Shown here piece by piece: positions 13,683-36,515 of a stretch of 64,000 bases of DNA. The stretch comes from Cladophialophora immunda (lineage: Eukaryota; Ascomycota; Eurotiomycetes; Chaetothyriales; Herpotrichiellaceae). Within the stretch, counting starts at the first letter, position 1. The number at the start of each line of letters is the position of its first letter. The DNA is taken from the NCBI RefSeq assembly GCF_000835495.1, contig NW_015622547.1, positions 1,612,001-1,676,000 of the forward strand, read 5' to 3'. Made by a program: the position numbers and the translations under genes. Under the pieces are notes generated by a model. That model had not been told where the DNA came from, made no database searches, and worked only from the letters and a program-made list of their open reading frames with translations.

Positions 13683-15394
13683 TCAGTGCGTGGTATCCTC
13701 CCAGCCTTGCCACCCTCTTCCTTTGATCTCCTTCAACTCCTCCTCGCTATAAGGCTTACCCGTCGTGAAGTAGCCGGCATTGATTTTGGCGTCGATTTCG
13801 ACTCTAGAATCCGCGGGGATAAGGTCTAGAAAAAAAAGGAAATGACATTGTTAAATTAGATTGAAGGCAAATTGGCGAGAGATTGGTTGAGCCGCCATGG
13901 AAGCTGAGGGAGAAAGAGAGAGAGATAGGGAAGAGAAAACTCACGGTCGGGAATGGGAACTCGCTCGTGGATTGGGATGCCTTGTTGTACTATCGCGTTG
14001 TACTTCATGTTGGACATGGACAGCATACGGTCGATCTTTTTGATGCCCAGCCAGTGCAGGATGTCTGGCATGAGAGCTTGGAAGCGCATCTGTGAGATTT
14101 GTTAGTACATGATGATAGAGATAGTGCCCCTGAACAAACGACAACATAGAACATATTAGGGAGGTAGAGAAAATGAAAAGCTTACATCTCTGACACCAGC
14201 AATGGCTTCAGTTCGTTGAAAATACTTATCGGCAGTGTCCCCTCCGCGTTTCCTCGAATTGTACACCAAATACTTGACCACTTCGCCCAAGGCACGGCCT
14301 TCCTTTCGGAAATAGATAACCACACCAGAGCCTCCGGCTTGTGCCTCCTTCAGGGCCTCTTCGATCCCAAAGGCAAGATATGGGCGACATGTGCAAATGT
14401 CTGATTGGAACACGTCGGAACCATTGCACTCGTCGTGGATGCGAAGGGCCAATTTGACGCTCGGGTCCGACACTCGCTCGGGCGGACCGAAGATGTAGAC
14501 AGTCAGCCCACCGATCGGTGGCAGAAACACGCTCAGATCAGTTCTCGTAATGAATTCCGGGTAGCTCCCTCCAGTGTGCTCGAACAGGGCTCGCCGCAAC
14601 GTGGTCTCGTCCACTCCAAAGCGCTCGGCCACCCCGGGGAGATACCACACCGGGTCGACTGCGACTTTGGTCACGCGCACATCGCCCGCGTCGTTGAGGA
14701 CGATTTTGCCGTCCACCTGCAGTCTCTTTTGTCGTAGGGCGTCGGTGATCTCGGCCACGCGCATGGTGGCCCGCGTGATGGCGATGGTGGGGCGCACGTC
14801 CATGCCGGCTGCGAGGTGGTTGCCAAAGTACTTGACAATGTCGTGTCCGTAAGGGTCCATGGAGACGATCTTGGTCGGATCGGACCAGGCAGGTTGCGGG
14901 GCGAAGTCGAAGGTCGGTTGTGTGTTTGTGAGGTCTGGGCGGAAATCGCGCGTCAAGTCGCCAGCAGCCACTGCCAGTGCGTTGTAGAAGCTGTAACTCC
15001 CGCCGTGGGCGCCGATCGCGTTGCGTCGCTTGAAGCTGTCATGGCTTCGGGACACGATGATCGGCCCTCTTGTCTGGGGGTCTGCAGCGCCCCATTGTAG
15101 AGGAATCGGGTCGGCGACGCTCTGCCCCGGGTAGGTGGTCAGCACGACGCGATTGCTGTATTTCTGGGTCAGCGACAGCACACTCGACGAGCTGGCGCTG
15201 CTGGGTGTGCTTGGTCGAGAACGAGAATGCTCTTTCTCGTCGATCGCCGTAACTGTGGTCGTAACGCCGACCGCCATCTTGAGACGTGCAGTTTGTGTAG
15301 TCGTCGACCAGGGTGTCTTCGGTCTCTTGACGCTTCGCTCCTCAGACGATGGGTCGGGCTGGTCGAAGTCTAGGGAATACGCCGTGTTCAGCAT
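13683..15394 (-). CDS. URC1: Urc1-type GTP-cyclohydrolase-II-like uracil catabolism protein
   Basis: Three exons, 15394-14186, 14089-13945 and 13825-13683, join in phase to 498 residues. The introns are 96 and 119 bases. The C-terminal part is GTP-cyclohydrolase-II-like. The zinc cysteines are C323, C334 and C336, the C-x10-C-x-C spacing of bacterial RibA, followed by YFRKEGRALGEVVKY in place of the RibA nucleotide loop. A long N-terminal region (GPIIVSRSHDSFKRRNAIGAHGG and following) is absent from riboflavin enzymes but typical of Urc1. In Lachancea kluyveri URC1 is required to degrade uracil through ribosylated intermediates. The neighbouring URC4 and UPRT genes support this reading over RIB1. 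The first 75 residues are polar and poorly conserved-looking, and M40 is an alternative start. Confidence 0.87.
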
Positions 15395-16127
15395 TTGAGA
15401 CAGTTCTAGCGTTGCGAATCATAAAGTATAAGAGGGCGATGGACTGTTGCGTCACACTTGGATGATATGGACGACAGCTGCTCTCGCCGTCAGATGGATC
15501 ACAGAGAAAAGAGGGTGGATAGGTCATCTGGTGCCTGAAGCAAGACAAATTTGGTGAAGCTGTCGCCGCCATCTCTGATACCCCGATACTGCAGAACAAT
15601 CTTTTTGTTTTCTGTTTTTGATCCCCATCATGGGTTGCAGTGGGCACTTTGCAGTGGGAGGGTTCTGGCGGGGATCTGTGGAGATGGCCGAAGACTGAAG
15701 CGATAAGCAAAGTATCTTCAGTCTTGTCAAAGAAGGTGGGTCCAGATAATACAATTCGGCTGAAGATACGCAAATAGAGCACATAGGGTGGCCTATTGCT
15801 CTCTGGGTCCATGGGTAGCGCAAAGATTCCGCAGTTATTCTGATAAGCCAGACTCCGCACCTTCTCGTGCTCGTCCATGGCTTTCCCGCTAAATTCAAGA
15901 CTTGTGGCAGAGCGACCCTTACTCCTAACACTTAGGTAGTAAGTACTATGCCACCTCTTGGATTCTCTTTAGGTTTTGCGAGAGCGAAGGACTGGTATGG
16001 AAGTCCACGGTTGGTGTAGAAGTCAGCGCTAAATTCTGCATCTTGTGCAAAAACTGTGTATTCTATATCTTTCCATCCCTGGGCACACTCCTTGAATCGC
16101 AGCACCTTGTCCAAATTCCCTCGTCCG
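15395..16127. other. Intergenic, URC4 to URC1
   Basis: This 733-base region lies between two minus-strand genes. It should hold the URC4 3' UTR and the URC1 promoter. A 71-codon frame at 16147-15932 overlaps the URC4 end. I do not recognise it and regard it as UTR. Confidence 0.6.
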
Positions 16128-17641
16128 TCAGAAGAGCGTCCCATCACCAGCGATCAATATAGGGCTTGATCTGCTCTTTGGTCGCTTTGTGGCAGCCAGC
16201 TCGCGACCAGTTTTCCATGAGCCAGCCTCCAGCATTTGGGCCATACTAATAGTAATTCCTTGAGCTGCAAACTCCTTGGAAATGATCTCATGCAGTCGAT
16301 CAAGGAGAGCAACTGTCATCGCCCGCCACTCGACAATCGTATCGCTAGTGGCGTCGTAGACGGGAAGAATTTGTCCAGATGCCCTTTGGCCCACACTTAG
16401 AGTATCTTCTTTCAGAGATAGAACACCCATGTCCACAAACAGACCTCCATTCCGATATTCAGGCAGCCCAGTGCCCAGCTCCATATTCTCCCACCTGGTA
16501 TGCAGAATCTTCACAAACGGGGTCGTTAACGAATATGCAAGCCACTGAGTCAGCTTATGAAACGGCTGAATAGCTTCAGCCAGGGTATCGTTGGCATCGG
16601 ACTGAGACTGTTGCGTAAGAACCTGAAGAGGCCAGGCATCTCCAAGAGGTTGATTTCCAAGGTGGGTTCTGTCTTTCGGCCATGCGGGAAGCAGTAGACG
16701 CTGCAGAGCTGACCAGAGGATAGTGTAGTCAAGAGCATCAGTTCCAGTAACCGAAGCGGTCATGTAGTCTAGGAAAAGGATTGACTTAGATCAGTATTCA
16801 CATTGAACTGACTTTTGAAAGCAGAGGTTTGCACCACATACATACCCACAAGATTCCCTGGTCGCCCCTGAGAGCCGAAGATGTCGGACAAAGAGAGTAG
16901 AGATTTGCCAACGTCCCTCAAAAGCTGGATCCGAGCATGCACACCGACCATGGGATTGCTACTCGAGATCTGAAACCAAGACAGAAACCTTTCCTCGTCG
17001 AGGTCAAGCAATGCCCTTCCTAAATGAAGCGTTCCGTTAGCATTACAACAACACAATGCAAACCATTTCCCACAAAAATTCAAAACACCCACCATCCACA
17101 GTGCAAGGACATGCAGGGTTTGACGAGAACGCTCCCGACTCAAACATGTACAGCGAAGCTACCGCAATGCCTTCGGATCGGTTGTATACATGGTTTTGCG
17201 TGTCTGGCTCTTGAAAGCTCCAAATATCTCCAGCCCCTGCGTCGAGAAGGACCGACACCATGAACAGGTCAATTAAGACCCTCGTCTGTTCCTTGGGATC
17301 GGTCGTTTCTTTCGTCCGGAGCAGCATCCGGGAAATGCGGTCGACATTACCGACGTTGAAGTGCTGCCAACGCCCATGCGGAGGGATTTCATGATATCTA
17401 TCGGGCCCAAAGTCGCGCTGCACATTCATATTGCTTAGTTCCAATTGCGAGAGGGCTGTTGCCTGTGTGGAACTTGAAAACTCACTGATATTGTCTGAGC
17501 CACCAAGCGGGCAGCCTCTGGGAGTTGATCGGCATTGTAATGGAAATGGTTGAGTGTCCCTCTCTGCGCGCACTCAAAAACACAATTGGCACGTTCCCTG
17601 ACTGCTTGTAGTGATACTAAGTATTCAACTTCCGACACCAT
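16128..17641 (-). CDS. URC4: Urc4 uracil catabolism protein (DUF1688)
   Basis: Four exons, 17641-17486, 17417-17093, 17019-16846 and 16768-16128, join in phase to 431 residues, the usual size of the DUF1688 family. The introns are 68, 73 and 77 bases. The family signature IPPHGRWQHFNVGNVDR begins about residue 63. The C-terminus follows the family pattern with GSWKTGRELAA, then the final GDGT-hydrophobic-F. In Lachancea kluyveri URC4 is essential for growth on uracil as nitrogen source, though its chemistry is not settled. It probably acts with Urc1 on a ribosylated uracil or ribosylurea intermediate. The start is the ATG giving MVSEVEYLVS. An acidic in-frame stretch upstream looks like UTR. 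It shares a divergent promoter with a UPRT gene. Confidence 0.9.
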
Positions 17642-18598: not shown

Positions 18599-19337
18599 AT
18601 GACAGTCGACCCATCCAAGTCCCAGTCCAAGATGTCCTACGCAACAAAGCTGTCCCAACTCCGCGATCCCACGCTTCCACCCCGCGAAGTCCGCCGGCTC
18701 ACATCCGAATTGACCACCATGCTCGCCGAGACGGCCATCGAGCCTCCTTCGGTCAACGAGATAGTGGTGGTTGTGGTCATTCTGCGATCGGGAATGGCCA
18801 TGATGGACGCCTTTCTCGCTGCGCTCCCTCCCAAGGCAAACGTAATCGTCCACCATCTGGGCATTTTCAGAGACAGAAAAACACTCCAGCCCGTCGAGTA
18901 CTACAACAAATTGCCGCCCCGATCCGGCAGGATCAGACATGCTTATATCCTCGACCCTGTCGTTGCCACGGGCGGTACGGCCGAGGCGGCTATTCAAATC
19001 CTCAAGTAAGTGACAAGGCTTTTCTACAGCTCGCCGAGTTGCCTCACAAAGTAACAGAGTCTTTTTTTTCTCTTCCTTTTCCTTTTCCTTTTTCTTTGTG
19101 TCTATCCATTTGCTAACATGCCGTGTGTTTTCCTCTTCTAGAGATTGGGGAGTCGAAAAAATCACCTTTGTATCCATTTTGGCCAGTAACCCTGGGCTGG
19201 ACAAAGCCGCTTCCAGCTGGCCTGAAGGCACGAACTTGGTGGTAGGCGCCGTCGACTCGGATCTGGACAATGCAGGATACGTTCAACCTGGCATCGGAGA
19301 CATAGGAGACCGATTGTTTGGAACAAATTTGGATTGA
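18599..19337 (+). CDS. Uracil phosphoribosyltransferase, bacterial Upp-like (short form)
   Basis: Two exons, 18599-19005 and 19142-19337, join in phase (intron 136 bases) to 200 residues. It converts uracil and PRPP to UMP. The N-terminus KLSQLRDPTLPPREVRRLTSEL and the mid-part VEYYNKLP resemble bacterial Upp more than yeast Fur1. The PRPP loop is ILDPVVATGGTA (about 117-128). The uracil-binding tail is YVQPGIGDIGDRLFGT. About 20 residues that normally lie before ILRAG (here ILRSG, 61-65) are missing, so the protein is shorter than the usual 208-216. All key loops remain. It is divergent from URC4, and phosphoribosylation of uracil is a required step of the URC route. Confidence 0.85.
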
Positions 19338-19664
19338 AAATACTAAAGATGGATCATGAAACAGAACAGGCTATAGCAGTACGAATAAGAACCAATTCTT
19401 GATTTTATACTCGAGAACCTCTCTCTACTTGTGAACATGAAACCAATTTGTTCACTCGATTCAGTAATAACCGTTAGTGCCTTTCTCGGCTTTCGATTTC
19501 TCAACCCAGGCGTGAAAAATCAAAAGATACAACTCATAACCATCCCCCTCCCAAAGAATAGTTTCGTTACATCATGCTCGCCGCCTTTGTGGCTTTTTGC
19601 CTTCAGATGGGGAGATATGGAGTATATCTCAACTGCCCAGTGACAATTGGCAACCTTTTTCCAA
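19338..19664. other. Intergenic between convergent genes
   Basis: A 327-base stretch between the UPRT stop (plus) and the aldehyde dehydrogenase stop (minus). It is the 3' UTR of both, with nothing else seen. Confidence 0.6.
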
Positions 19665-21338
19665 TCACCGCCACAGCGCTGTGACAGTTTTGGGCATTGT
19701 GAAGAACTGCCAAGGGCTCCGTCCACATACATTGTCTCCCAGGAATGAGTCTTTGTTTGCTGTTCTTGCAACAGGACCCGAGGCCGCCAGGACCGGAACA
19801 TTAATTCCAATCTGGCCTATGTTTATTTTGCGCTGGAAGGTCTGAGCCTGGACAGGATCGGTCGTAAACAGTGAGCATCCGTTGCCGTACCTGTTCTCGT
19901 TTGCTATCTCGATGGCCTCGTCCAGGGTGTCCACCTCGATGCACACGAGGACAGGCCCAAAGATCTCGTCCTGGTAGCACTGCATAGACGTCTGCACTTT
20001 GGTGATGATGGTTGGCCCGACAAAGTTCCCCTCGGGGTATTCGGGCACGCAATAGTTTCGTCCGTCCAGCACGACATGGGCGCCTTCGGCTTCGGCAAGG
20101 TCGATCATGTCTTCCACTCTCTCTTTTGCAGCGGCCGTGATCAAGGGACCGACTTCGGTGCCAGGATCAGAACCGCAGCCGACTTTGAGCGACCCGGCCA
20201 GCTGGGCAAGATCGTCGATCCATGCCTTGGTCGACCCAACGCAGAGCATGACACTCAGCGCCATACACCTCTGGCCCGCGGCCCCAAATGCGCTTCCGGC
20301 AATGGCATAGAGAGTCTGTGTCTTTGGCGCATCCTCCAGAACGATCCCGTGGTTTTTCCCACTGACTTCGACTTGTATTCTCTTTCTGGTGGCTTTGGCA
20401 TGCTCGTAGACTCGTTCTCCAGCGAGCTCGGAACCCACAAAGGACACCGCGCTGACGACAGGCTGCGAGAGCAACTTGTCCACGGCCCCCGATGATCCGT
20501 GAATGATATTTACCACCCCAGGGGGAAACCCCGCCTGCACGAAGCATCTCCCTAGAAGGTTAGCAGTCGAAGGGGCCTTTTCGGAAGGTTTCAAGACCAC
20601 TGTGTTGCCGGTGATGACCGCGTAGGGGATCGACCACAGAGGGATCATAAAAGGGAAATTAAAGGGAGTGATGACCACGCAGACCCCGACGGGCTGGTGG
20701 ATCGTGTAGGTCTCTGTCGAATTGGTGGTCCAGTGTTTGCCATTCATCTCGGCCGTGGCTGAGCACGCAGTGTGGATAGCATCAATTCCTCTCTCGAATT
20801 CGGACTCGGCATCCTGCAGTGTCTTGCCCACCTCGAGCTGTAGTGACTGTTGAAAGTCGACAGTGTGCTGCTGCAAAACATGCAGCAGGGAAAAAAGCAT
20901 GGCTTTCCGTTTCGCTATAGGCAACGATGCCCACGCTGACTGCGCCGCTTCCGCCACCGTCACGGCTTTTTGGATCTCTGCTGGAGTTGACTCCGGCACC
21001 CGGGCGAGCAGCTTCTGTGATGCAGGATCCAGTACCTTCATCCAGACTCTCGTCTTGGACACGCCGAATTCATTGTTGATCAGGTTTTGGGTTGTGGTAG
21101 GCGGTATAGGCAGGGCCATGGTGCTAGTGCTTTGATTCAAGGGCACGGTCACCCTGCTGGGGTCGCTGGTGCCTAATCGGGTGCTTGTTTCATCGCTGCG
21201 ACGTCTCTTGTTCCGATGGTGATGGTTGGGAGAGTAGTCACCAGCTGTGTCATCCTTGCTGTCGACTACTAGAGACAAAGGCTGCTCTAACAATGTCGCC
21301 ACAGTCGTAACCGTTGTTGCAGAGATTTGGCCTACCAT
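19665..21338 (-). CDS. Malonate/methylmalonate-semialdehyde dehydrogenase-like aldehyde dehydrogenase
   Basis: A single exon of 557 residues. From about residue 80 it follows the MMSDH branch of the ALDH family: TPFNFPFMIPLWSIPYA, LKPSEKAPST, and the catalytic cysteine C358 in AFGAAGQRCMALS. It ends with FTMPKTVTALW. The likely role is oxidation of malonate semialdehyde, the C3 product expected after uracil ring opening. The first 73 residues are polar with a KRRR stretch and do not look like a mitochondrial presequence. M74 (MALPIPP) at 21119 is an alternative start. At the position of the general-base Glu of hydrolytic ALDHs, this protein has Glu (QVEVSGKNHG), whereas CoA-acylating MMSDHs usually have Asn or another residue. 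CoA dependence is therefore uncertain. Confidence 0.85.
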   Translation of the reverse strand: MVGQISATTVTTVATLLEQPLSLVVDSKDDTAGDYSPNHHHRNKRRRSDETSTRLGTSDPSRVTVPLNQSTSTMALPIPPTTTQNLINNEFGVSKTRVWMKVLDPASQKLLARVPESTPAEIQKAVTVAEAAQSAWASLPIAKRKAMLFSLLHVLQQHTVDFQQSLQLEVGKTLQDAESEFERGIDAIHTACSATAEMNGKHWTTNSTETYTIHQPVGVCVVITPFNFPFMIPLWSIPYAVITGNTVVLKPSEKAPSTANLLGRCFVQAGFPPGVVNIIHGSSGAVDKLLSQPVVSAVSFVGSELAGERVYEHAKATRKRIQVEVSGKNHGIVLEDAPKTQTLYAIAGSAFGAAGQRCMALSVMLCVGSTKAWIDDLAQLAGSLKVGCGSDPGTEVGPLITAAAKERVEDMIDLAEAEGAHVVLDGRNYCVPEYPEGNFVGPTIITKVQTSMQCYQDEIFGPVLVCIEVDTLDEAIEIANENRYGNGCSLFTTDPVQAQTFQRKINIGQIGINVPVLAASGPVARTANKDSFLGDNVCGRSPWQFFTMPKTVTALWR

Positions 21339-22014: not shown

Positions 22015-23262
22015 CTAATTAAACAAAAAGGAGATGCTGCATTGATTTCACTCAGCTTGGAGAATATTGTTGCCTAGAAAAAGGGGTATACTACTTACGA
22101 TTCACCGTGGTGTGTCCGTCGAATTGCTTCTGCAATGATGCCACTGACGTCGATGGACTCGATTTTTGGACATTTTTGAGCGGTCGGTGATAGGGGAAGG
22201 GTGTTTGTGACCACGAGTCTCTCCAAAGAGCTCTCCTCGATCTTCTGGATTGCAGGACCTGAGAGAAACCCATGGACAACGACGGCGCGGCAACTGATGG
22301 CACCGTGGTCCTTCAATACGTCCGACGCCATGATCAGGGTGCCACTGAGTGCGTAGTTAGTAGAGGTCCGCCGGACCCCCCAGGAAAAATGAAAATGAAA
22401 AGGATTAGTTGCATGAATATCAAGAAAGACTTACCATGTGTCCGCGATGTCGTCAACAAGAACGGCAGTCTTATTGAGAACCGATCCAACCAGAATCATA
22501 CGACTGACTTTATTGGCGACTTTACGCTCCTTGTGGATGAGGGCTAGATCAAGACGTAGCTTGTCCGCAATGATAGCAGCTCAGTGACAACGTAAGCCTC
22601 TTTTGTTTGCATGTTTTTTCCCCATTAACTTCTGGACTGAGACTCACCTCTTTGCACCACCCGCGTCAGGAGACACAATGACGACGTTGTCCAGGGGCAT
22701 GTTACCTCGAATGTAATCGACCATGGCACTCTCGGCGTAGAGATTGTCCACAGGGATATTGAAGAAGCCTTGGATTTGTGAGGCATGCAAGTCCATGGTT
22801 ATCACATGATTGCAGCCGGCTGTCTCAAGCATGTTGGCCACCAGTTTGGCCGTGATGGGAGCTCGGCTGCGGTCTTTCTTGTCTTGCCTCGAATAAGGGA
22901 AACAGGGGAGCACGGCGGTGATCTGTCTGGCGGAGGCAGTCTTGCAGGCGCTGATCGTAATTAATAGTTCCATGAGCATGTCGTTGACTGGTTCTGCCGC
23001 TGTCTGGATGATAAACAGATCGGCGCCGCGGACCGAGTTTTCAATGACAACACTGGTCTCGCCATTCGAAAACCGCGATGATGTGAGTTTTGTGGACGGT
23101 GAATCCTCCCCCAGCCTCTGGCATACAAGGTCGACGAAGTCTGGATGACTTCCTCCTATATTCGTCCCATTCAATCTCGGTTAGCGACATCTTTCAACAC
23201 GTATGGTACGGAGTACCGGTGTCAGAGTAATAATACTGACCACTAAGCACTTGAATGGACAT
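22015..23262 (-). CDS. Ribose-phosphate pyrophosphokinase (PRPP synthetase), one junction uncertain
   Basis: Five exons: 23262-23241, 23155-22648 (or to 22658), 22579-22435, 22344-22099 and 22036-22015. It makes PRPP from ribose 5-phosphate and ATP. Seen are [40 protein letters not shown], the flexible loop HKERK and the PRPP motif VDDIADTCGT. The last exon is only 22 bases and restores the usual GES-ISFLFN ending; the first is also 22 bases. The obvious donor at 22647 (gtgagt) and acceptor at 22580 do not keep the frame: one base too many. A donor at 22657 does keep it, giving 310 residues but removing AKR after DAGG. It is divergent from a Fur1-type UPRT, which uses its product. Confidence 0.8.
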
Positions 23263-23984
23263 TTTGGGATACAGAATTTCATCTAACAACACTTGTTACC
23301 GCGAAAGAAGATTGGTGTCTGCAAGAGGAACACTGAGCAGGTCGGATACCCAGGGAGAATGCGTGCTCCCAGACCTACAACTCAGGCTCCTCAATGTATC
23401 AGTGTTGGATTTATCATTCCCCTTACGCCTAAATTACAGCCACCAAGCTGTTGAGTTATTACTTCTATTTCCATGTCCTATGTCCCAGGGCGCACAGCGT
23501 CAGCCTAGAAACAAACAGTCTGACCCGCTCAAGTAGGTGCTAGGTACAAACTAACCGAACCACGAACACTGTACTTGGAAGATAGTTGAATTCCTCTATA
23601 ATGACCAAGTTACCAATCTCGTCCATACTCCAGCGGAGATCTCGTGCTTACGAAGGTCATCTGGGGTGGACCCATAATAGATAGATACTCGGTAGATAAA
23701 AGATACTTTAAACGATATAGTACGTGGGGAATTTCAGAACTTTCAGAGGGCCTCGCATTGTTTATCTGAGATCTCTCTCTTCAGATCGGAGGTGGGGAAC
23801 CTCCCGATATGTAATCTACAGGTGTCGATAAGAACTGTATGCCTATTCCCCAAGACTGGATCTACCGGTACGATAGGGTTGTTTGTTAAGTCGGCCACTT
23901 GACGCCCCGATGCTCACATGCTAAATCCTGGCGCCTCAGGACCTAGACTCCAGTCTCCTACCATAGGGCTTTCAAGAATAACAC
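23263..23984. promoter_or_regulatory. Divergent promoter region, PRPP synthetase / Fur1-type UPRT
   Basis: A 722-base head-to-head region between the enzyme that makes PRPP and an enzyme that consumes it. A GATAAG site lies at 23827-23832. Further GATA cores occur at about 23690-23700. No gene is seen inside. Confidence 0.5.
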
Positions 23985-25021
23985 ATGTGCGATCCAACGT
24001 TTGATTTTCCCGCTTCGAGAATGCGCAACACCATGGAGAATTGCGTACTCCTGCCACAGAACCATCAACTCCTAAGTTCCATGACCATTCTGCGCAATCA
24101 AAACACGAAGGACAAGGACTTTATCGATGCATTTGCAGGAGTGGCTGCGCAGCTCATGGCCAGAGGTGAGGAAGAGACCGCTTGATGAGATTTACTCTGG
24201 CTGTTGTCCAAGTTCGTGCTCAGCCATCTAACGAGTTTGTTTTTCTCCTGCAGCGTTGGATTTCGTCCCAGTCGAATGTCAACAAGTGACAACCCCGACA
24301 GGAGGCACGTACCAGGGCGTGCGACAAGCAAAGAAAGTCTGTGGCATCAGCATCCTAAGGGCAGGGGCCAGCCTGGAAGATGCTCTGAGAAATGTTTACA
24401 AGTATGTGAATACGAATTTGCCCGCTATTTTTCCAGCTCGACCAGCAAACATCCTCCCTTTTCCTCTTCCCCCCAAAGGGAGGTGAAAGCGAAAGTGCAT
24501 ATCCATACTGACCATATCTTTGCGAATTAAAAAGTGGTCCTTTGAGCTTCGGAAAGCTCTTGATCCAACGAGACGAGAAAACGTGCCTCCCAACACATCT
24601 GTACTCCAAATTTCCTACGTCGATTTCGGACGCTTGTAGGGCTTCAACCACGACCAAAACGTGTGTGCGATCACGTTGCTGACTTAAAGCAGATGTACTG
24701 ATTCTTGAGCCAATGCTTGCGACTGGAGGCTCAGTGAGTAAAGCAATCGAGCTTGTCCTTGAACAGCGTGTGCCGGAGGAACAAATCATTGTTGTCAATG
24801 TAATAGCTTCAGCGAGGGCAGTCAGCCTGGTCTCTGAACGGTTTCCGAAGTTGATGTTGGTGACAGCGGCTATTGACAAGGATTTGAATTCAAAAAGGTT
24901 TGTCGATATCATATATGCGATTTTATCAACTTGTCGACTTCGATCACTGACAAAATACCGACTCTACAGGTACATCGATCCAGGACTTGGCGATTTCGGG
25001 GATCGCTTTTATGGTACCTGA
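23985..25021 (+). CDS. Uracil phosphoribosyltransferase, Fur1-type
   Basis: Five exons, 23985-24165, 24254-24401, 24535-24635, 24693-24897 and 24970-25021, join in phase to 228 residues. From the second Met (24021) it is 216 residues, the length of yeast Fur1. It shows LLPQNHQLLSSMTILRNQNT, then VTTPTGGTYQGV, CGISILRAGASLEDALR, LIQRDEKT, the PRPP loop LILEPMLATGGS and the tail YIDPGLGDFGDRFYGT. The PRPP loop begins with Glu where Asp is usual. The 133-base second intron has an alternative acceptor a few codons later, so a short stretch around NGPLS is uncertain. It forms UMP from uracil and is the second UPRT of the cluster. Confidence 0.85.
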
Positions 25022-25585: not shown

Positions 25586-27936
25586 TTAATGCTTGAACAC
25601 CTCCACACTAGACTGCACCTCGCTGTCCTTTGTATCAACAACAACGCTGGCTTCTGAATCTCCCTTGGCCTGTTCATATGGATCAACACCATTGATCATA
25701 ATCGATGGAACGAGGGCCGCGTCTCCTATTTCATTCCAGCTCTTGTTATATGCAACTTTGAAAGGTCCGAATCTGCACATCAGGTAGTATACCCCTCCAC
25801 TTACGAGAACACCCATAAGGAAGTTGAACTGATCTGAACGTTTAGAGAACGATTAGTATTTATCGTCCTTAAAATGGAAGACCAAGAAAATGGAAGCAGA
25901 TCTTGCAAACAGGCGTAGGCTTACACAAATACCAGGCACCAATCGGTATTGATGCACCCATGGCTCCGGCAACACCAACGATATTGAATATCAATCCGCA
26001 TCTGTGAGAATCATTAGGTTCTGCGGCTGAAGAGCAGGAGATGAAGTAACCCACAGGTACCCCACGTAAGCGTTGATGCCAAACCCACCCAAGCCCCAGT
26101 AGAGATCGGACGATTTATTGGAGTACAACTGATCAACTGCAAGATGGCCTCGGCGGACGATAAAATAATCACAGAAATAAGGTCCGACGAAAGCAGAAAG
26201 GAAGACACTGTAGGCACCGACGTATGCTAAGAAGTTGTTGCTGCTGGATAAGAGTTTCCACGGCACGCAGGCAAAAGACAACACTGCTGCAACATAGCCA
26301 CCACGTCCTGGGTTATGTTAGTCTTTTCTGTCCAGATTCGCAATCAAGGGCACAAAGGGATGACTTACGAATATTGAGGTATCGAGGGAATAGAGCGGTA
26401 AAGTCACTTCCCGCAGAGTTTGCACCTGTCAGGTTTGTCATGGCCTGAGCATAGACAAAGATCAGGGCGAGGAAGAAAACCCCGGCCCTGTCGCTGCTGG
26501 ATGGATTTTCGGTAACAAACTAGGGAATGCAGAGGTTAGGTGGGGATCTTCCGGCCTAGAATTTGCAATTCTCTTGCTAAAACTTAGTACTTACTCGCTC
26601 CAAGACGTCCAAAGGATTCCAAAGCGGGGAGCCATATAATGTAGCGCTGCAGCTAGAGACGATCAAACCAACCAGGGAAGTGATTGAGAATGAGACTGGA
26701 ACTGTAATAAGTTGAGACCAGAGGGCATGGGAAGGTTTCTTTGAAAACCGCGTAAAATCGGAGTCTGCGCATTGGAAGATTCAATAAATAAGCCAGAAGA
26801 GAGGGTAACTCTGTGGGTTTTCATCCCACACTCACCATTCAGAATGAATGTGCTGAAATTGTCCAAGGAAGAGATGATGGCTTGGATCACGGTCCATGTC
26901 AAGGCACTACCTTTGAGGGCTGTGGAGTCATAATATCAATGACGGGCTAGGGAAAACATCGAACTTCATGAATACTTACAGCTGCTTTGACTCATGACTG
27001 GACCAGCACCGTGGCCTGCTCTCACAGCCACCCATACAGCGAACGCGATGCCTCCGATGGGAGCTGTCACCGCCTTGACAGTGTATAGATGTCTGACTTT
27101 GTGCAAAGGGAAGTATATGCCTTTTTTGCGGTCTTAGCAGGATATTCTCAACCGCAAAGCGAGGCTTGCAGAGTTTCCTAACCGATCAGTTGACAGAGCC
27201 AGAACAGGAAAAAGCACATCATATGCTTTGTATCTGTCTGAGCAGACGCTGGGAGATGATTTGGGATTCGAGCGGTTCCTGGCCAAACCGCACACAGCAT
27301 GAGATAAAGGCATCTGGTTTTGGGGGGGCAGTATCGTTAGCCTTTTTTTATATCCAAGGACCAAGGTTGCTTTGACAGTTAATTTGGGGACAAACTCACT
27401 GTCCTCCAATCCAGCTCTGGACAGAGTACCAGATAATGGCCAGGACAATACGATTGAGCACCGGCCATATCGAACCATAAATGCCGAAAGAAGAGCGAAT
27501 CGCCACAGGAAACGAAATGTGGTACATTGCTCCCATTCGGCCTCCGAGTGAGACGAAAATACCCGTCAGGATATATCCTGCCCAGATACAAAGCCAGCCT
27601 TGCCACCAGGCGAGACCACCGGCGACGTAGCTCCCGGCAAGCTGCCACGTATTGACATTGAACGAGGCTGTGAAGAAATTCCAGTCAGCGAAACCCAAAA
27701 AAAAATCGCCCTGCATGGAATTGACATTGTAGGACATGGCTCGATATATACCTACCCGAGATCCAGAGATTCATGTAGTTGTACCAGCCCCATGTCCGTC
27801 GTGTAGGCTCAATGGGAGCTAGGTCAGGACTCCAAAGATATCTACTCCGTTCAGCGCCATCAGCGTTGTTGTCATAGTAGTCGTGCTTGATCTTGCACTT
27901 CTCTGCCACCTGGGCTGTACGCTCTCTCAAAGTCAT
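25586..27936 (-). CDS. NCS1-family nucleobase permease (uracil/allantoin type)
   Basis: Ten exons: 27936-27756, 27667-27400, 27313-27183, 27120-26980, 26919-26836, 26764-26595, 26519-26369, 26307-26061, 26001-25925 and 25833-25586. All nine introns (59-91 bases) keep phase, giving 565 residues, the family norm. Signatures are RRTWGWYNYMNLWISASFNVNTWQ, then RMGAMYHISFPVAIRSSFGIYG, IWYSVQSWIGGQ, a mid-part ANSAGSDFTALFPRYLNIRRGGY and DYFIVRRGH. It has many hydrophobic segments and a polar acidic tail. It imports uracil or a related base such as allantoin, uridine or thiamine with H+ or Na+ at the plasma membrane. Its place inside the cluster favours uracil. It is divergent from the MOSC-reductase gene. 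Confidence 0.9.
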
Positions 27937-28647
27937 GATTGTAGACCTTGCTTGGCCTTTTCGATCAAAAATTCTGACTCCAGAAAAAGGCGCAATCCGT
28001 TTTCAATATTTCCGATGTGTAAAACGAATTGATAAAGTTGAACTTGTATTCTAGTACGCACACCTGCCTATGCTACCGTATCAGTGATGAGCATGCCTTT
28101 ACCCAATACTACCGGGGCCTGCATGAAAGATATATAGGTCAGCGCAACGGCGCCCGTTTTGGATTAGATCATTCCTAAATGGTATCTATGATAAGAGATG
28201 TTCTTGATAGGATAGTGGGGATTGAGATTTAGAGCCTACACCCCTTATCAAACTTCGACTTTATCATATTATCATATACTTTGGTACCTTATCTCACTAT
28301 TTGCGTTCCTCTCCGCAACTCAAAATCTTCAACCCAGTTCCGGAGTTTTTCCTCAATCCCCGCCAACAGCTACTGTACTGGTGCTTGCTCACGCTCTAGT
28401 GCAGGAGGTTGTATGGGAGATTTGTCTATACCACAGGGTCTTGATGACCTAAAGATGGACCATGGTAGGCTGATTTAGACCTTGTGAATTTTGGGCACGT
28501 GGATTGACTCAATTTGGCCAATATTCCATCGTTTAAATACAACCACAAACTGGTCGGCGGCTTCAAGTGGCCTTTGCGTCTCTCATACGGTGCGAGTCCA
28601 AGGTCAGCTATATATTCAAAATTCCATCTTCAAGCAGTTTGCCAAAT
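27937..28647. promoter_or_regulatory. Divergent promoter region, permease / MOSC-reductase
   Basis: A 711-base head-to-head region that contains a close group of three GATAAG sites, listed separately. An in-frame reading at 28567-28647 upstream of the MOSC-reductase ATG begins with GTG and is taken as 5' UTR. Confidence 0.55.
28190..28293. promoter_or_regulatory. Group of three GATAAG (AreA/GATA-factor) sites
   Basis: GATAAG is at 28190-28195 on the plus strand. CTTATC (minus-strand GATAAG) is at 28244-28249 and 28288-28293. Paired or grouped HGATAR sites are the usual binding pattern of fungal nitrogen-catabolite GATA activators. Their place in the permease / MOSC-reductase divergent promoter suggests induction of the pathway under nitrogen limitation. 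Binding is inferred. Confidence 0.5.
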
Positions 28648-30324
28648 ATGGTTCCAGACGAACAAAAAGAAGCTGCGGACCTAAAGTTGCCCTTTGAGAC
28701 TGAAAGGTTGCTTCAAGTGCGGACCGGAAAGATCAAACCCCTTTACCACCTCCCAGTAAAGTCGGCAATCTACAAGAATCCTCATACTCAACCTGTCAAA
28801 GTCACCAAACTTGGTTGCGAGGGAGATGAGCACGCATACGAGTTCCACGGAGGGCCAGACAAGGCGCTGCTTCACTATTGCGCGAGACACTATGAGACGT
28901 GGAAAGAGGAGTGTCCAGGGAGTAAGGAGCATTTCACCGTGGGCGGATTTGGGGAGAACCTGGTCAGTACCTCAGCTAATGAACAGAATATCTGCATTGG
29001 AGACATCCTCACGATTGGTCCAGAAGTCCAAGTGCAGGTCAGTCTTCCACGGCAACCCTGCTTCAAGCTCAACCACCGTTTCGAAGTCAAGAATATGGCA
29101 TGGCAGTCTCAGATGAAGAGCAGAACAGGCTGGTACTATCGCGTCTTGAAGGAGGGCTACATTTCACCGGGCGACGAAATTAAACTTGTCGAGAGACTGA
29201 ACCCGAAATGGACAGTGGCAGCAGTCCAACACTACCTGTACCGGGAGATGAAAAACTTTGAAGTCATGGCCGAACTGGTGAATCTTCCAGGCCTCGGCGG
29301 AGAATCGCTCACAATCTTCGAGAACAGGTTGAAAAAGAACTTTGAGAATCAGGACGAACGAATGTTCGGTGACGACTCTGTTGCTCTGGAGACCTGGTCG
29401 GACTACAAACTTGTGCAGAAGCTTCGACAGACTCCTCGAATTTGTTCGTTCGTTTTCGAAGTTGTCGGAGAGCGGTCTCAAACAACAAGTCACAAAGTTG
29501 AACCTGGATCTCATGTGCGCTTGAAGTTGGGAGATAAGGGTGACCTGATCCGAGCATACTCCGTTGTTGGTGGCACCAGGGACCGCTTCGAGCTGGGTGT
29601 GGCTCTTGCAGACGAGTCCCGTGGAGGATCTCTATATCTGCATAAAATTGCCAAAGTGGGAGACGTATTCTCAGTAGGGAAAATTACCACCAGCTTCCCA
29701 CTCGCGTCAGAGGCGGACGAACATATTTTGATCGCCGGTGGAATCGGAATCACAGCCTTCCTTCCCGGTGCGGAAAAATTGAAGGAATTGGGAGAGAATT
29801 TCAGCTTGCATCTGGCCGTCCGCTTTACCCGTGATTTACCCTTCAAGGAGAGACTATCGAGGCTAGGCAAGAGCCTCGTAGTTTATGACAAAGAAAAGGG
29901 GCGGCGCCTGGACCTCGCCCGTATCATGTCCAAAGTGACCACCAATACACACGTGTATTGCTGCGGGTCTCCCAGATTGATGGACGACGTTGCCGCAACC
30001 GCGAAGCAATATGGGCTTTCAGAAAAGCAGGTCCACTTTGAGGCTTTCGAAATCACGACCACAGGCGATCCTTTCACCGCGGAGCTCCTGATGAGCCAAA
30101 AGACAATTCAAGTGCCGGCAACACGGAGCCTTCTGGAGGCATTGAGGGAGGCGGGCATCGATGTACCGTCATCGTGTGAAGCTGGAAGCTGCGGCACTTG
30201 TCGTGTTCAAGTTGCAAAGGGACGCATTGACCATCGTGGAACCGGCTTGTTGGAATCGGATAAGGCCTCAGCAATGCTAGCCTGCTCTTCTAGAGGCATT
30301 GGACATATAGAACTAGAGCTTTAA
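28648..30324 (+). CDS. MOSC-domain / ferredoxin-reductase / 2Fe-2S fusion oxidoreductase
   Basis: A single exon of 558 residues starting at the ATG at 28648. Residues 30-165 form a MOSC domain (HGGPDKALLHYCARHYETW, VGGFGENLV, PRQPCFKLNHRF). A short 3-alpha region follows. Residues 255-460 form a flavin and NAD(P)H reductase of the phthalate-dioxygenase-reductase type (RAYSVVGG, LIAGGIGITAFLP, VYCCGSPRLMDDV). A plant-type 2Fe-2S ferredoxin ends the protein with C510, C515, C518 and C546. It resembles bacterial YiiM fused to a vanillate-demethylase reductase. It passes electrons from NAD(P)H via FMN/FAD and 2Fe-2S to an acceptor, possibly a MOSC-bound molybdenum cofactor or a partner oxygenase. 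Its role in the cluster is not known. Confidence 0.88.
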   Translation: MVPDEQKEAADLKLPFETERLLQVRTGKIKPLYHLPVKSAIYKNPHTQPVKVTKLGCEGDEHAYEFHGGPDKALLHYCARHYETWKEECPGSKEHFTVGGFGENLVSTSANEQNICIGDILTIGPEVQVQVSLPRQPCFKLNHRFEVKNMAWQSQMKSRTGWYYRVLKEGYISPGDEIKLVERLNPKWTVAAVQHYLYREMKNFEVMAELVNLPGLGGESLTIFENRLKKNFENQDERMFGDDSVALETWSDYKLVQKLRQTPRICSFVFEVVGERSQTTSHKVEPGSHVRLKLGDKGDLIRAYSVVGGTRDRFELGVALADESRGGSLYLHKIAKVGDVFSVGKITTSFPLASEADEHILIAGGIGITAFLPGAEKLKELGENFSLHLAVRFTRDLPFKERLSRLGKSLVVYDKEKGRRLDLARIMSKVTTNTHVYCCGSPRLMDDVAATAKQYGLSEKQVHFEAFEITTTGDPFTAELLMSQKTIQVPATRSLLEALREAGIDVPSSCEAGSCGTCRVQVAKGRIDHRGTGLLESDKASAMLACSSRGIGHIELEL

Positions 30325-30819: not shown

Positions 30820-32245
30820 ATGGGCAGCATCCAGGAGCCGCTCCTCGGGGAAACCCTTCTCCAGACAGCGAAGAGGCTTGAGGCAGCAGATTTCAAAGAA
30901 GTCCCCGTCATTGACCTGGCCGGTCTTGCCAGTGGTGAAATCACCGACCGGATCGCTGTGGCACGAGAAGTCCGTGATGCTTGTATTCGCGTCGGCTTTT
31001 TCTACATCAAGAGCCATGGTGTGCCTCAGGAGGTGATTGATCGCGCGTTTGAGGTGTCGAAGAAATTCTTCGCCCTGCCGGCGGAGGATAAGATGGAGGT
31101 GTATGTGACCAAGAACGAGAGCTTCAAGGGGTATGAAGACATTCATTATGGAGCGGTGGATCCGCAGACAAAAGGAGGTTAGGTTTTTCTCTTTCTTTCT
31201 TCGTTTTTCTTGCCAACACTTGTTGTTCACGGTTTGAGCACTTCCTTCCGTCCTTTTGCCCGAGAATATCCAGCCACCATGTGATACCATGCAATCATTG
31301 ACTAACATTCATGCGTGCAGATATGAAGGAAGCCTTCAACTTCGGCTACGAGCCCGCAGCCGACTTCCAGACTCCTCTCTCCGAGCCATGGCCATTGTAT
31401 GAGGGCCTAAAGGGTCCCAATGTCTGGCCTCGAAGCTTCTCTGAGCAATGGAAACGAGACTTATTTGCCTATTACGGCGAGGTGTTGAATTTGGGTCGAC
31501 GGATGATCCGAGTCTTTGCCCTTGTGCTCGACCTCCCCGAAGATTATTTTGATGATCTCCTGACTCGACCGGGTGCCATCATGCGGCTGCTCAGATATCC
31601 TGCTTCAATACTCGACCCTGACCATCCCGGGATCGGGGCACACAGGGATTATGAATGTAGGTATTGGAGCGACGAAGATACATTTACTACCTGCTACCTG
31701 CTACCTGTTACCAGTTACCAACCAACACTAACCCTTGTTGCCTGTTGCAGGCTTTACGATTCTCTGTCAAGACCAGACCAATGGTCTACAGGTGCAGACC
31801 AAGAAAGGTGAATGGATCGAAGTGACTCCGATCCCTGGCACCTTTGTGGTAAACATTGGCGATTTCCTCTCTCGCTGGACCAACGATGTCTTTCGCTCAA
31901 CCTTGCACCGAGTCTACAATGTCTCCGGCCGCGAGCGTTACTCTTTCCCGCTGTTCATCGGGCCAAACTACACCACCCAGATCCAGGCCATTCATACTTG
32001 TGTCAATGAAGACCGGCCTGCGAAACATGAGCCTTTTGTCGCTGGCGAGGTAAGCTATATCCCTTACTCAACCATACTGCCCCCCATGCGCGAAGAGAAG
32101 CTCTCTGAAAACTCAGACCCTAGAGCAAACAATACTCAGAGTTACTGACATGTTCTTTTTTTAAAATCTCTTCTAGTACATTGCCAACAGGCTCTACGGT
32201 GCGAAACGAAAGCATCTTCCCATTCCCCTCGAGAGTTCCGCGTGA
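30820..32245 (+). CDS. 2-oxoglutarate/Fe(II) dioxygenase (thymine-7-hydroxylase candidate)
   Basis: Four exons, 30820-31177, 31321-31656, 31751-32049 and 32177-32245, join in phase to 353 residues. The introns are 143, 94 and 127 bases. It belongs to the isopenicillin-N-synthase-like family, with the N-terminal PVIDLAGL and ACIRVGFFYIKSHGVP. The iron triad is H227, D229 (AHRDYE) and H284 (STLHRVYN). The 2-oxoglutarate-binding R-x-S is R294-x-S296. Fungal thymine-7-hydroxylase, which turns thymine stepwise into iso-orotate, is in this family and of similar length. The location among uracil genes makes that a good candidate, but other substrates of the family cannot be excluded from sequence. 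Confidence 0.87.
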
Positions 32246-32968
32246 GAGACCAGCTACTGGGTGACACCTTTGTGGAGGATAGGGGGGCCCGTATGGGTTA
32301 ACAAATCAATTGCGTCCTCGCTTACAATGGCAGGTGCTCTGACGCTAAGGTCCATGACAGCGGGCTGGAGCCGTAGAAGAAGGGTTGAACTGTGAGGGCG
32401 ACTCCAGAGCACTGTCGCCCCCATCGGATCTCATGCCGACCACAACTATTCTCTCAGATTGGGGTTTAGACGGAGATATAAGGGTGCGAATGTATTGTGC
32501 AATTGTAGTGCGTCCTGGTAGTAAGTATTAAGAAGAGGTTTGAAACTTTGGAGTTGTAGGTGAAGGTGCCAGCAATGTACAGTGCGCGCAGCAGTCGACA
32601 ACACAAGTCAATAGATACTAAATCACAAGTCGGGTTTTGTCCCGTTGAGAAGTGTGGAAATGGTGGACCGGTCACTCGAAGCAAATACCGACAGAAGGTT
32701 TCACCTAAGGAGCAGAGTCTAGACCCTTTGTTGTGGAGTCGTTTGAGCGCGCCATAAGACCGTGCGGCAAGGTGTCAGCGGCCTCCGTGAAACACGTAAC
32801 CTGGAGAGCGGAGGGCGGGGCGGAGGGCGGAGCGGAGCGGTCAAAGCGGGTGGCTCATCGCCAACGCCGTTTGGTCCACATTCGAGCGACCCGTCAGTGG
32901 GGGATACATATATGCCCTGGTCGAGCTCAAGTCTACTGACCTCGGTAGCAATTGACTAGCACATCAAG
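32246..32968. other. Intergenic, dioxygenase to FAD oxidoreductase
   Basis: A 723-base stretch between two plus-strand genes. A purine-rich repeated motif (gagggcggggcggagggcggagcgg) is at about 32812-32836. No gene is seen. Confidence 0.6.
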
Positions 32969-34428
32969 ATGCCGAACACAGAGAATGGCACAACGAAAGA
33001 CCATATCAATGGCTTCCTGTCCACGGCTGAATTTGGTGACCCCTACGATGTGATTGTGGTTGGTGGTGGTGCCGCGGGCATTGGTGCTGCGATCGGCGCA
33101 AAGCAGACGGCGCCACAGTCACGGGTCTTGATCATTGAGTCCGAGGCATGTCTCGGCGGCGCCGCTACTCACCGTGGAGTTCTCTCATACTGCGGACTTT
33201 ACAGCGTGGGACCCGACCCTCGAAGGGCGGTAGGGCAAATATGGACGGAACTCCATGCAAGGCTGGTCTCAGAGGGAGCGGCGACTCCCCTTCCCGATAG
33301 AGTTGTCGCATATGTTCAGGCAAGACAGAAATTCTACATCCTCGAACTCGAAGCTGATCTTGGTTCCAGCATATCGATCCGGAGGGGCTCAAGCATGTCC
33401 TGGATGACATGGTCGCCTCATATGATATTGAAGTTTTACTACATTGTACCGTGGTGGGTGGTGAGAGAACCGATGGCAAGCTTGTCACGGTCGAGGTTCA
33501 AGAGCGAAGGGGGAGACGAACAATCTCAGGCAAGGCATTCGTGGACTGCTCAGGGGACGGAGATCTCGCCAGCCACGCCGGCGCGTCGACAAGGTACGGC
33601 AATCACGGCCACGTCAACATGGGTTCGTTGGCGACCCGGTTCGGTGGCCTCCAGAACGCCAATCCATCGTCTTCATTGTGGCGAGACGCCATTCAGAAGG
33701 CCAAAGCGGCGGATCCAACACTGAAAAAGACTATCCCACGTAACGTCGGGGTCTTGATTCAACTTCCTGGCTCCGGAGACATCTGCACATATATGGCGTC
33801 AGCGATTTATGATGCCAGAAATAGTGCTAGTATCTCGTCCGCTGAACGGCAGGGGCGAATGCAGGCCAAAACCTACCTCGACATTCTTCGCAAATTGCCC
33901 GGTCATGAGAAAATGTATCTCGTTTCCTCTGGACCGAATTTCGGCACACGCGAGTCTCGCCACATCAACTCGCGCTATCAGCTTACCGAGTCCGACATAT
34001 TTGAAGGTCGCAGCTTTGGAGATACTGTCGCTCTCGGGGCTTGGTATACAGAATATCATGACGGAAGTAAAGAGGATTGGCCAATCATTTTTAGGGAGCC
34101 ACCAGAAGGAGTATTCGACATTCCTTTACGCAGCTTGCAGAGTATTGACACCCCCAACCTATTCTGCGCCGGTCGCTGTGCCGATGGAGATCAGGCTGCA
34201 GCTAGTGCCATCCGGGTCATGGGGACTGCATTGGCGACTGGTCAAGCTGCAGGAACTGCTGCTGCCCTTACAGCGCAAACAGGCTGCGAGCCCAATTCAC
34301 AGGACGTCAGGCTTTCGCTTTTGAAGCAAGGAGCGTTACTGGACCGTCACAATTTGGTCAAGGCGCCCTACGTGGAAGAACCCGAGGGTCTCAACATCAC
34401 TCGTGAGGAGGCGCTAAACAGACATTGA
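32969..34428 (+). CDS. FAD-dependent oxidoreductase (FAD_oxidored, PF12831-like)
   Basis: Two exons, 32969-33319 and 33370-34428, join in phase to 469 residues. The intron is 50 bases with a GC..AG pair (donor AG/GCAAG, branch-like CTGAT). Without removing it the frame breaks before the conserved HIDPEGLKHVLDDM block. The FAD Rossmann motif is VVGGGAAGIGAA (residues 31-41). It is followed by LIIESEACLGGAATHRGV. The C-terminal FAD-binding segment is NLFCAGRCADGDQAAASAIRVMGTALATGQAAGTAAAL. These proteins are poorly characterised flavin oxidases or dehydrogenases. The stop lies 17 bases from the stop of the convergent regulator gene. It may act on a pathway intermediate, which is inference from position. 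Confidence 0.85.
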
Positions 34429-34445
34429 CCTGCTTATTACAAGGA

Positions 34446-36515
34446 TCATAACTGAGCATTGAACATCGTTTCATCGATCTCAATGTCCCAACTCAGAGAT
34501 CCGTGCATGGAGTAAGGCACGTTGTCAAAATTCCATTCGGAAAAGTCAGTTCCCGGGGCTGGGTCGAATGCCTGCCCTAGTGGTTCCGGTGGCAGTTGCG
34601 AGTATTCTTGATGGTCGGTGGTAAAGAAAGGGCGCGGCTCCGCTGGGCTCGATGGTCTCGAAATCCTTGAGTCGATATCACTTTCCATCTGGCCGCTATG
34701 TGTTGCCACGGGCACGGCAGGGTGGCCTAGACTGGAGGAAGATGCCGCACGAGGGCTTTACTTGGAGAGAGCCTTGGCTCTGAGACTCTTCAATCTTGGC
34801 CAGCGCCGGTCGCCTTCGGGAACCCGATCTTCCCATGTGTCGAAGAAGGTGTCGACAGCTCTCCAGGCTCGATCTAGGAGGTCAGGCAGCGGTGAAGTGG
34901 TGAGACTGTGTAGAAGGAAGGCAACAGCATCCCACTCAATGTACTTCTGGAAAAGCCAGATCCATCGTGAGTAATTGTCGTTTGTTCGCAACGTGCGGGC
35001 ATATTCAATGATTTCAACGCTGCTTTGGGTGAGGTCGCGCAGTTGGGCATTAGAGAGCGGGACGGCGTTGTTGCAAGCCGGATGGTTGATGGTAAGCTTA
35101 ACCTTAGCCAGGACAATTCGGATAGATGTAACAGTAAGGAGACAGATTGGGATTCTGTTGTCGCAGTATCTTAGATATCGGTGATCGAAATCCTTTAACA
35201 ATGATTCGATAAAGTCATTCTTTTCCGAAAGTGAAAGGCTCGGATATTGGTTATCAGCCGTGAATTTTGGCGAAAAGACCAATTTTCGTGCAGCATAACT
35301 CCCCTCGAAGCGGATGAGACTGTATAGCATCTCGGTATGTCGTCGGAGGTTCGATGCCGGCTCCGTCATGTTTAAGTGTAGATCGGCGTCGTTCACATTA
35401 GCAGGAAACTTGGTGTCGAACATGTGCTCGCAGATAAAAGGATCCATGTCGTTTTCTTCGGCCGTTCTCACATCGAGAGTTGCAATACACCACCATAGTC
35501 TGCGGCGCATTTCTGCCCAGAACGAAGGTACCCCCAAGAAGACCGGGTCACGATGCAGCCCCAACTTCATGGCAAGTCGGATAAGTAATCCAGTCATGGA
35601 CCATATGTAGGTTTTATCTAACGTCTGTCGAGCACAGGTGAGAAATATTGTTAAGGCCTGCAGTGTAGTTACGTCGGGTGTACTCATGAAGTTTGCTTTT
35701 TTGAGTGAGCGCTGCACTCCGTGCCTATAGCGGTCGAGCAGCGGCTGCCGTTCCTCTTGGAATAAAGCTTGGAGATAGGTTGAAGATTGTGTGCTTGTAA
35801 TGGCAGCGTAGTAGATGGCGAACATAAGACTTTCGAATGCAGGGGGAATTTGAGTTGGATCTTGGCTGGCTTTGAGGATTTGTCGCTGGATCGTGGGAAC
35901 GTGAAGGATTTTGAAGACTGGGTCGACGTTTTCCACAAATACCTGCCACAGGGCGAAAACATTGTTGCCTTCTGGGTGCAATTGGTGCAGGGCCTCTGAT
36001 CTGGTCGTCGACTCAAACACAGGCGCTCGATGTTGCGTCGTGTGGTTGGTCACAGGTGGCGACATCTGGAACTCGTTGGATGGTGTCGCAGATTCATCCT
36101 GGTCGACATTGTCGAGGCCAGCCCAAAAACTGCTTGTAACGTATCTAGTATCTCCCTCCTCGCAGACGAGTCTGCCACTCCTCAGATCCGACCCTGGCGT
36201 CAGACTTGAGAGCGGCTCCGTGTCGTGGTTGACGGTGTCTGGAGGCTGTGCATGTTCAGATGGCCGTGGGCTGGAGTCGCGGTTCACTTTCGATTCCAGT
36301 CGGTGGAGTGAGGTCTCGATGGCTTTAAGTCTCAAGAGTAATATGTTTTCCGGCGCCCTTCTCCCTTCTTGGGGAGGAATCGGGTAAACGCATTGCAGAC
36401 GAAGTTTGGTGCAATAGCTACAGGGCTGCGCTCTGTCGCACCTGATTTTCCGTCTTTTGCAAGCAAGACATGATCGAACTGGCCCGCCTCTCGGGGCTAC
36501 ATTGGGAGCGTCCAT
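34446..36515 (-). CDS. Zn2Cys6 transcription factor, candidate cluster regulator
   Basis: Two exons, 36515-34762 and 34695-34446, join in phase (intron 66 bases) to 667 residues. The zinc cluster is complete: C16, C19, C26, C32, C35 and C42, with the basic part KRRKIRC. A heptad-like stretch, LLLRLKAIETSLHRLESKV, follows and may be a dimerising coiled coil. The fungal transcription-factor middle domain spans about residues 195-500 (WQVFVENVDPVFKILHVPT, LAMKLGLHRDP, MRRRLWWCIATLD). The short acidic last exon could be an activation tail. The frame extends upstream to a GTG only, so the ATG at 36515 is used. By position it could be the Urc2-like regulator, but sequence alone does not prove it. 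Confidence 0.88.

Follow-up and report, generated by a model that had tools for sequence, protein, structure and literature searches.

A 64,000-base stretch of the Cladophialophora immunda genome (C7:1612001-1676000, hereafter the window) carries a run of genes, from position 13683 to position 36515, that is probably a complete, clustered URC-type locus for uracil catabolism in which the phosphoribosyl group serves as a reusable handle. How would such a locus work? An NCS1 permease would bring in uracil, and a uracil phosphoribosyltransferase (UPRT), going by the function of its family, would combine it with phosphoribosyl pyrophosphate (PRPP) to form UMP. URC1 would open the ring of UMP or of a derivative, in line with published genetics for the family. 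URC4, judging from its QNG1-like fold and catalytic positions, would cleave ribosylurea at its N-glycosidic bond, the 5'-phosphorylated form being the most likely substrate, to yield urea and ribose-5-phosphate. A PRPP synthetase (PRS) in the cluster, which has the family function of making PRPP from ribose-5-phosphate and ATP, would presumably do so here for the pathway, and the urea would be passed to a urease whose gene lies outside the cluster, elsewhere in the genome. A methylmalonate/malonate-semialdehyde dehydrogenase (MMSDH) would, by family function, turn the C3 piece, presumably malonate semialdehyde, into acetyl-CoA and CO2. We give about an even chance to a more specific proposal, in which URC4 belongs to the QNG1 superfamily and acts as a phosphoribosylurea N-glycosidase, a dedicated PRS clade evolved by fungi closes the sugar-phosphate cycle from ribose-5-phosphate to PRPP with only ATP, uracil, and water consumed, and fungi and myxobacteria have each added a malonate-semialdehyde dehydrogenase that feeds the C3 product to acetyl-CoA.

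The core of the locus consists of URC1, URC4, and UPRT genes lying side by side, as an initial annotation of the window had proposed and as Pfam and the gene models bear out. (The models are predictions from a small exon-chaining script, Pfam, and homology.) The URC1-like gene (13683..15394, minus strand, three exons) encodes a member of the GTP cyclohydrolase II family that matches PF12471 at 305.7 bits, PF00925 at 41.2 bits, and NF005536 at 503.5 bits against a cut-off of 403; its best match in the Protein Data Bank (PDB) is 7eev (E 1.1e-119), and its product is the proposed opener of the UMP ring. URC4 (16128..17641, minus strand, four exons, 431 amino acids; DUF1688, PF07958) is full length once a 5' exon at about 17486-17641 is added from the reading frames, and its closest match is C. 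immunda PV07_11320 (100% as printed). UPRT-1 (18599..19337, plus strand, two exons, 200 amino acids) is divergent from URC4 and matches PF14681 at 172.5 bits, over profile positions 67-206 only. A second copy, UPRT-2 (24021..25021, plus strand, 221.6 bits to PF14681), has five exons (24021-24165, 24254-24401, 24535-24635, 24693-24897, and 24970-25021) and spans the whole UPRTase profile once modelled with relaxed settings. The other genes first listed for the locus, namely a semialdehyde dehydrogenase, the PRS, this second UPRT, an NCS1 permease, three redox enzymes, and a Zn2Cys6 regulator, were all recovered at or near the positions assigned to them. The predicted nucleobase permease and the putative regulator stand close to URC1-URC4-UPRT, as in other URC-type clusters. 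The grouping is more than chance, given the few places in the genome (42.2 Mb in 39 contigs) with a GTP_CH_N domain (two) or a DUF1688 domain (three) and its recurrence in relatives; both counts are lower bounds from exon-by-exon searches.

What reaction does URC4 perform? DUF1688 and QNG1 (DUF2419) have a common fold over 327 residues in which the catalytic lysine and acid line up, the residue match being drawn from a sequence profile and not from a structural superposition. With its lysine, its carboxylate, and this fold, URC4 would belong to the QNG1-like N-glycosidase superfamily, and K290 and E322 are its predicted catalytic residues. On the basis of fold and catalytic positions, we propose that it is a (phospho)ribosylurea N-glycosidase. 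The QNG1 profile scores 17.9 bits on the best DUF1688 protein, where the top score among 1,020 shuffles is 3.7. In the other direction, the DUF1688 profile scores 18.5, 11.8, 8.2, 7.6, and 4.6 bits on five QNG1 proteins and at most 5.4 bits on 1,000 shuffles, so that the fungal QNG1 (4.6 bits) by itself lies below the control. The role described for URC4 in the literature is the conversion of ribosylurea to urea (PMC7530994). Window URC4 is not QNG1 proper, though alike in fold, and C. immunda codes a separate, true QNG1. Searches of the PDB with DUF1688 by sequence returned no relative at E<=10. QNG1 was not found in 20 genomes behind URC loci, where the controls were likewise silent and the result is therefore no evidence, and it had no match in plasmids.

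The proposed link between URC4 and QNG1, which the initial annotation did not make, would explain what use the locus has for a PRPP synthetase. The PRS gene (about 22095..23262, minus strand, PF13793) belongs to a URC-linked clade: in a tree of 33 rows, a 100/100 branch separates 10 hand-picked canonical rows from the 23 others, which include the window type and a type found on contig C6 (the three other PRS genes of the same genome are outside the tree). Is the linkage seen elsewhere? Conservation in relatives had been set beforehand as a test of the grouping, and the grouping held. Among the best 120 URC4 and best 120 PRS homologues (URC-type PRS rows P0121-P0148), PRS and URC4 fall on one contig in 10 of the 12 species that both lists name with a usable contig: Capronia epimyces, C. 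coronata, Exophiala spinifera (locus tags PV08_05869 and PV08_05872), Aspergillus cavernicola, A. campestris, Hypoxylon crocopeplum, Xylariales PMI_506, Talaromyces proteolyticus, Clonostachys rosea, and Grosmannia clavigera. A shared contig here means equal size in the two lists, which give the length of the longest contig; this proxy is weak where contigs run to several Mb and strong where they measure 87,618, 200,188, and 295,947 bases. The contigs differ in A. californicus and Penicillium odoratum, and C. immunda itself was excluded from the count since its rows come from different assemblies. The sole canonical PRS of a species in both lists (PMI_506, P0199) is on a different contig.

The dehydrogenase (19665..21338, minus strand, one exon) scores 507.8 bits to TIGR01722, against a curated cut-off of 448.5, and its top PDB matches are MMSDH enzymes; by these scores it is of the CoA-acylating MMSDH subfamily and not a general semialdehyde enzyme. 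Because the genome has two further MMSDH-like genes (46% and 43% identity), the window gene is an extra copy. MMSDH also accompanies URC genes in bacteria. We assembled 84 bacterial loci from plasmid records and a genome-contig scan (80 kept of at least 581 relatives, chosen by similarity and not at random; an earlier scan with a fungal-only alignment had returned no relative) and scored their content by tblastn at E<=1e-6, some loci being cut by contig ends. URC1 is present in 81, UPRT in 77, and an MMSDH-like gene in 9, one of which (L055) lies about 9 kb away. In the remaining eight loci (L041, L062, L071, L072, L075, L080, L084, and L103), MMSDH, URC1, URC4, and UPRT follow one another in that order on a single strand, separated by small gaps, with MMSDH directly preceding URC1. 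Seven of these are every locus titled as myxobacteria; the eighth, L103, is titled Proteobacteria (an unclassified metagenome-assembled genome). Three of the seven myxobacterial proteins pass TIGR01722 in an NCBIfam scan (500.8, 489.7, and 496.2), that of L041 shares 76-93% identity with the other four, and the L103 protein, a fragment without its N-terminus, scores 438.6. In six of the eight genomes the operon gene is the sole match at E<=1e-60, and for that reason it may also serve valine breakdown. A clustering of bacterial neighbors from called open reading frames was spoiled by antisense frames and discarded.

When might the locus be expressed? HGATAR sites bind the AreA-type nitrogen regulator. 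Seven of them occur between PRS and UPRT-2 (23263..24020) and another seven in the divergent promoter of the NCS1 permease and its neighbor, a MOSC-Fer2 gene (27937..28647). Six cluster promoters together hold 28 in 4,335 bases (shuffles, 13.6 +/- 3.3, 0 of 200 as high), and eleven other intergenic stretches hold 32 in 16,104 bases (shuffles, 33.0). The six had been picked for a Zn2Cys6 motif search, GATA sites being counted after that failed, and exclude the stretches upstream of the FAD-dependent oxidoreductase and Zn2Cys6 genes, which have 0 and 2 sites; with both included, the count is 30 in 5,856 bases. Among 56 predicted genes in the window and three other regions, those with the most upstream sites are NCS1 (7), MOSC-Fer2 (6), PRS (6), and MMSDH (5), the first two counts coming from one common stretch. 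The URC genes on contigs C6 and C4, with 2 to 3 sites each, give a weaker signal. This enrichment fits nitrogen control, and GATA factors probably turn the locus on under nitrogen shortage. No 7-9-mer in the six promoters did better than shuffles.

Beyond the core lie the permease, the redox enzymes, and the regulator. The NCS1 nucleobase permease (25586..27936, minus strand, PF02133 at 233.7 bits) has many exons, and its model is incomplete in the middle. It is followed by a gene (28648..30324, plus strand) for a MOSC plus phthalate-dioxygenase-reductase-like plus 2Fe-2S (Fer2) protein, with a YiiM-like MOSC domain and one paralogue (53%), and by a five-exon gene for an isopenicillin N synthase-like 2-oxoglutarate (2OG)-Fe(II) dioxygenase (30820..32376, plus strand). 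The FAD-dependent oxidoreductase (about 32969..34428, plus strand, PF12831), which had no meaningful match in the PDB, and the Zn2Cys6 transcription factor (34758..36515, minus strand, PF00172 and PF04082) are candidate members. The initial annotation had drawn the cluster to include them, but the stretches upstream of these two have few GATA sites. Its suggestion that one locus covers the whole route is supported for the steps from PRPP supply and phosphoribosylation through ring opening to C3 oxidation, while uracil import by NCS1 and a part for the three redox enzymes are predictions. In Fonsecaea erecta, the 2OG gene (AYL99_04007, 97%) is on the same contig as PRS (AYL99_04003), four tags apart, just as the gene order in the window (PRS, UPRT-2, NCS1, MOSC, 2OG) would predict. 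F. pedrosoi has its 2OG gene and its URC4 on equal-sized contigs (304,949). As far as the best 120 of 1,965 2OG matches go, close relatives occur only in Fonsecaea (97% and 95%), the next of similar length being 54% (Claussenomyces), and conservation of this half of the locus does not reach past close relatives.

Could PRS, MMSDH, and the redox enzymes simply be passengers, kept beside an ordinary URC core (URC1, URC4, UPRT, permease, and regulator) by chance or by a subtelomere-like clustering of catabolic genes? We find this unlikely. It would account for the FAD and Zn2Cys6 upstream stretches not being GATA-rich, for the narrow spread of the 2OG gene, and for the lack of PRS, NCS1, MOSC-Fer2, 2OG, and FAD genes in any of the 84 bacterial loci, from which it follows that PRS and NCS1 are not needed for the core pathway. 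It sits poorly with the PRS-URC4 contigs shared across species, with a second such pair 3.5 kb apart in the same genome, with the MMSDH of the myxobacterial operon, and with F. erecta, which retains the gene count of the PRS-to-2OG block (tags 04003 to 04007). The slimmest prospect of those weighed is a wider pyrimidine salvage or detoxification (of thymine or modified pyrimidines, for example), with the 2OG and MOSC-Fer2 proteins processing a methyl group or N-hydroxylated bases so that uracil can then enter URC. The synteny of the 2OG gene in Fonsecaea, the YiiM-like MOSC domain on a reductase protein, and a 2OG match to thymine dioxygenase 5c3p (E 1.4e-39) are in its favor, but 5c3p ranks only fifth, and the 2OG enzymes above it, of which the best is 9ovh (E 4.7e-59), are not pyrimidine enzymes by name. 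The protein is nearest to general isopenicillin-N-synthase-like enzymes, and we rejected it as a thymine-7-hydroxylase on the same ranking.

A third alternative, rather doubtful but the best of the three, is that URC4 acts on unphosphorylated ribosylurea and releases ribose, PRS only supplying the two UPRTs with PRPP from the general ribose-5-phosphate pool. A PRS beside a UPRT would be sensible as PRPP supply alone, and the intermediate is named ribosylurea, with no phosphate, in PMC7530994. Against free ribose, the nearest fold, QNG1, has queuosine-5'-monophosphate as its primary substrate (PMC11592518; titles of PDB entries 7u91 and 7ulc), and no ribokinase was noticed in the cluster, though no search was aimed at one. 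That published name also counts against the phosphoribosyl cycle that we favor, and it is not alone in doing so. Window URC4 scores 14.9 bits to Pfam Q_salvage (PF10343), below the cut-off of 25; its comparison with a single fungal QNG1 is not significant (probability 0.3%, E 0.22); it has a glutamate where the catalytic acid of QNG1 is an aspartate; and, of course, a fold in common is no proof of reaction. The bacterial loci weigh in the same direction, with PRS and NCS1 in none and MMSDH close by in only 8 of 84. So does the failure to find a common Zn2Cys6-type motif (of 64 gapped CGG/CCG patterns, the best occurs in 2 of 6 promoters, and shuffles reach 2 to 4). Lastly, the PRS exon junction is odd: the intron near 22579-22647 (minus strand) opens with GTGAGT, and no AG acceptor restores the conserved frame in full, although use of a TG acceptor would yield the sequence found in E. 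spinifera. Three relatives are annotated with a shortened junction, four residues being absent there in the orthologues from Fonsecaea and C. yegresii.

The same genome holds other URC genes. A PRS (2600202-2601626) and a URC4 (2605084-2606601) form the second pair, on C6, and C4 carries a second URC1, about 20 kb from a UPRT; the window cluster is therefore a second, clustered set. Between and beside the C6 pair (C6:2600202-2608727, L009-L012) are genes judged by eye to be HAD-like, Gfo/Idh-like, and alpha/beta-hydrolase-like, and the HAD-like one could be a pathway phosphatase. The third DUF1688 gene (C3:3506300-3507978, L013-L016) is distant (about 40% identity); it retains the FHKLTQW and LPEYRNGG motifs and has no URC neighbors within 40 kb. 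A tree built from 39 URC4 proteins joins the window copy, with support of 100/98, to those of Fonsecaea, Capronia epimyces, two Exophiala, Thozetella, Sarocladium, and Polychaeton, a patchy spread across three classes; the C6 copy falls outside this group. Acquisition of the cluster from bacteria by horizontal transfer is unsupported, as the window URC4 has introns and is placed among fungal URC4 proteins. Elsewhere in the window are a lone AMP-binding C-terminal domain (PF13193; 39256-39696, plus strand) behind an MFS-like frame, which looks like a gene remnant; arylsulfotransferase-like (PF14269; 46282-47982) and Sulfotransfer_4 (PF17784; 49665-50555) genes close together on the minus strand; and a BAHD-like acetyltransferase with a TRI101-like N-terminal domain (PF22664; 53552-54937, minus strand).

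Many bacteria and fungi use URC as a route for uracil, and Pfam still labels DUF1688 as being of unknown function. The QNG1 link assigns it a precise, testable reaction and two residues, the linked PRS explains how a pathway spending one PRPP per uracil could be paid for, and from the pairing with MMSDH, seen in two groups that are far apart, one can predict where the carbon goes. A conserved URC1-URC4-UPRT cluster with a transporter and a zinc-finger regulator is already known (PMC3869809). The links DUF1688-QNG1, URC-PRS, and URC-MMSDH are likely new, none having been found in a literature search in which the exact terms were never combined with DUF1688, a word found in only four papers, and whose coverage stopped short of subscription papers.

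How does the locus compare with known systems? The URC pathway of Lachancea kluyveri (URC1-6 and URC8) has URC1, URC4, and UPRT in common with it and takes uracil to urea by a phosphoribosylated route (PMC7530994). Unlike in that yeast, the C. immunda genes are clustered with PRS, a second UPRT, and MMSDH, the urea is likely split by urease, and the C3 piece likely goes to acetyl-CoA, whereas L. kluyveri makes 3-hydroxypropionate. Schizosaccharomyces pombe has adjoining homologues of URC1, UPRT, and URC4 in urg1-urg2-urg3, which are induced by uracil (PMC2174524), but PRS, MMSDH, a second UPRT, and redox genes go unmentioned for that locus in the accessible portions of PMC2174524 and PMC3869809. 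The bacterial URC1-URC4-upp operons are alike in their compact core, URC1 lying no more than 3 kb from URC4 in 81 of 84 and UPRT likewise in 76, and differ in having neither PRS nor NCS1 and in having MMSDH by URC1 only in the seven myxobacterial loci and L103. QNG1 itself, a queuosine-5'-monophosphate N-glycosidase, resembles URC4 in the 327-residue fold and the aligned lysine and acid, and differs from it in the Q_salvage score, in having aspartate for glutamate, and in its substrate, which for URC4 would be ribosylurea or its phosphate.

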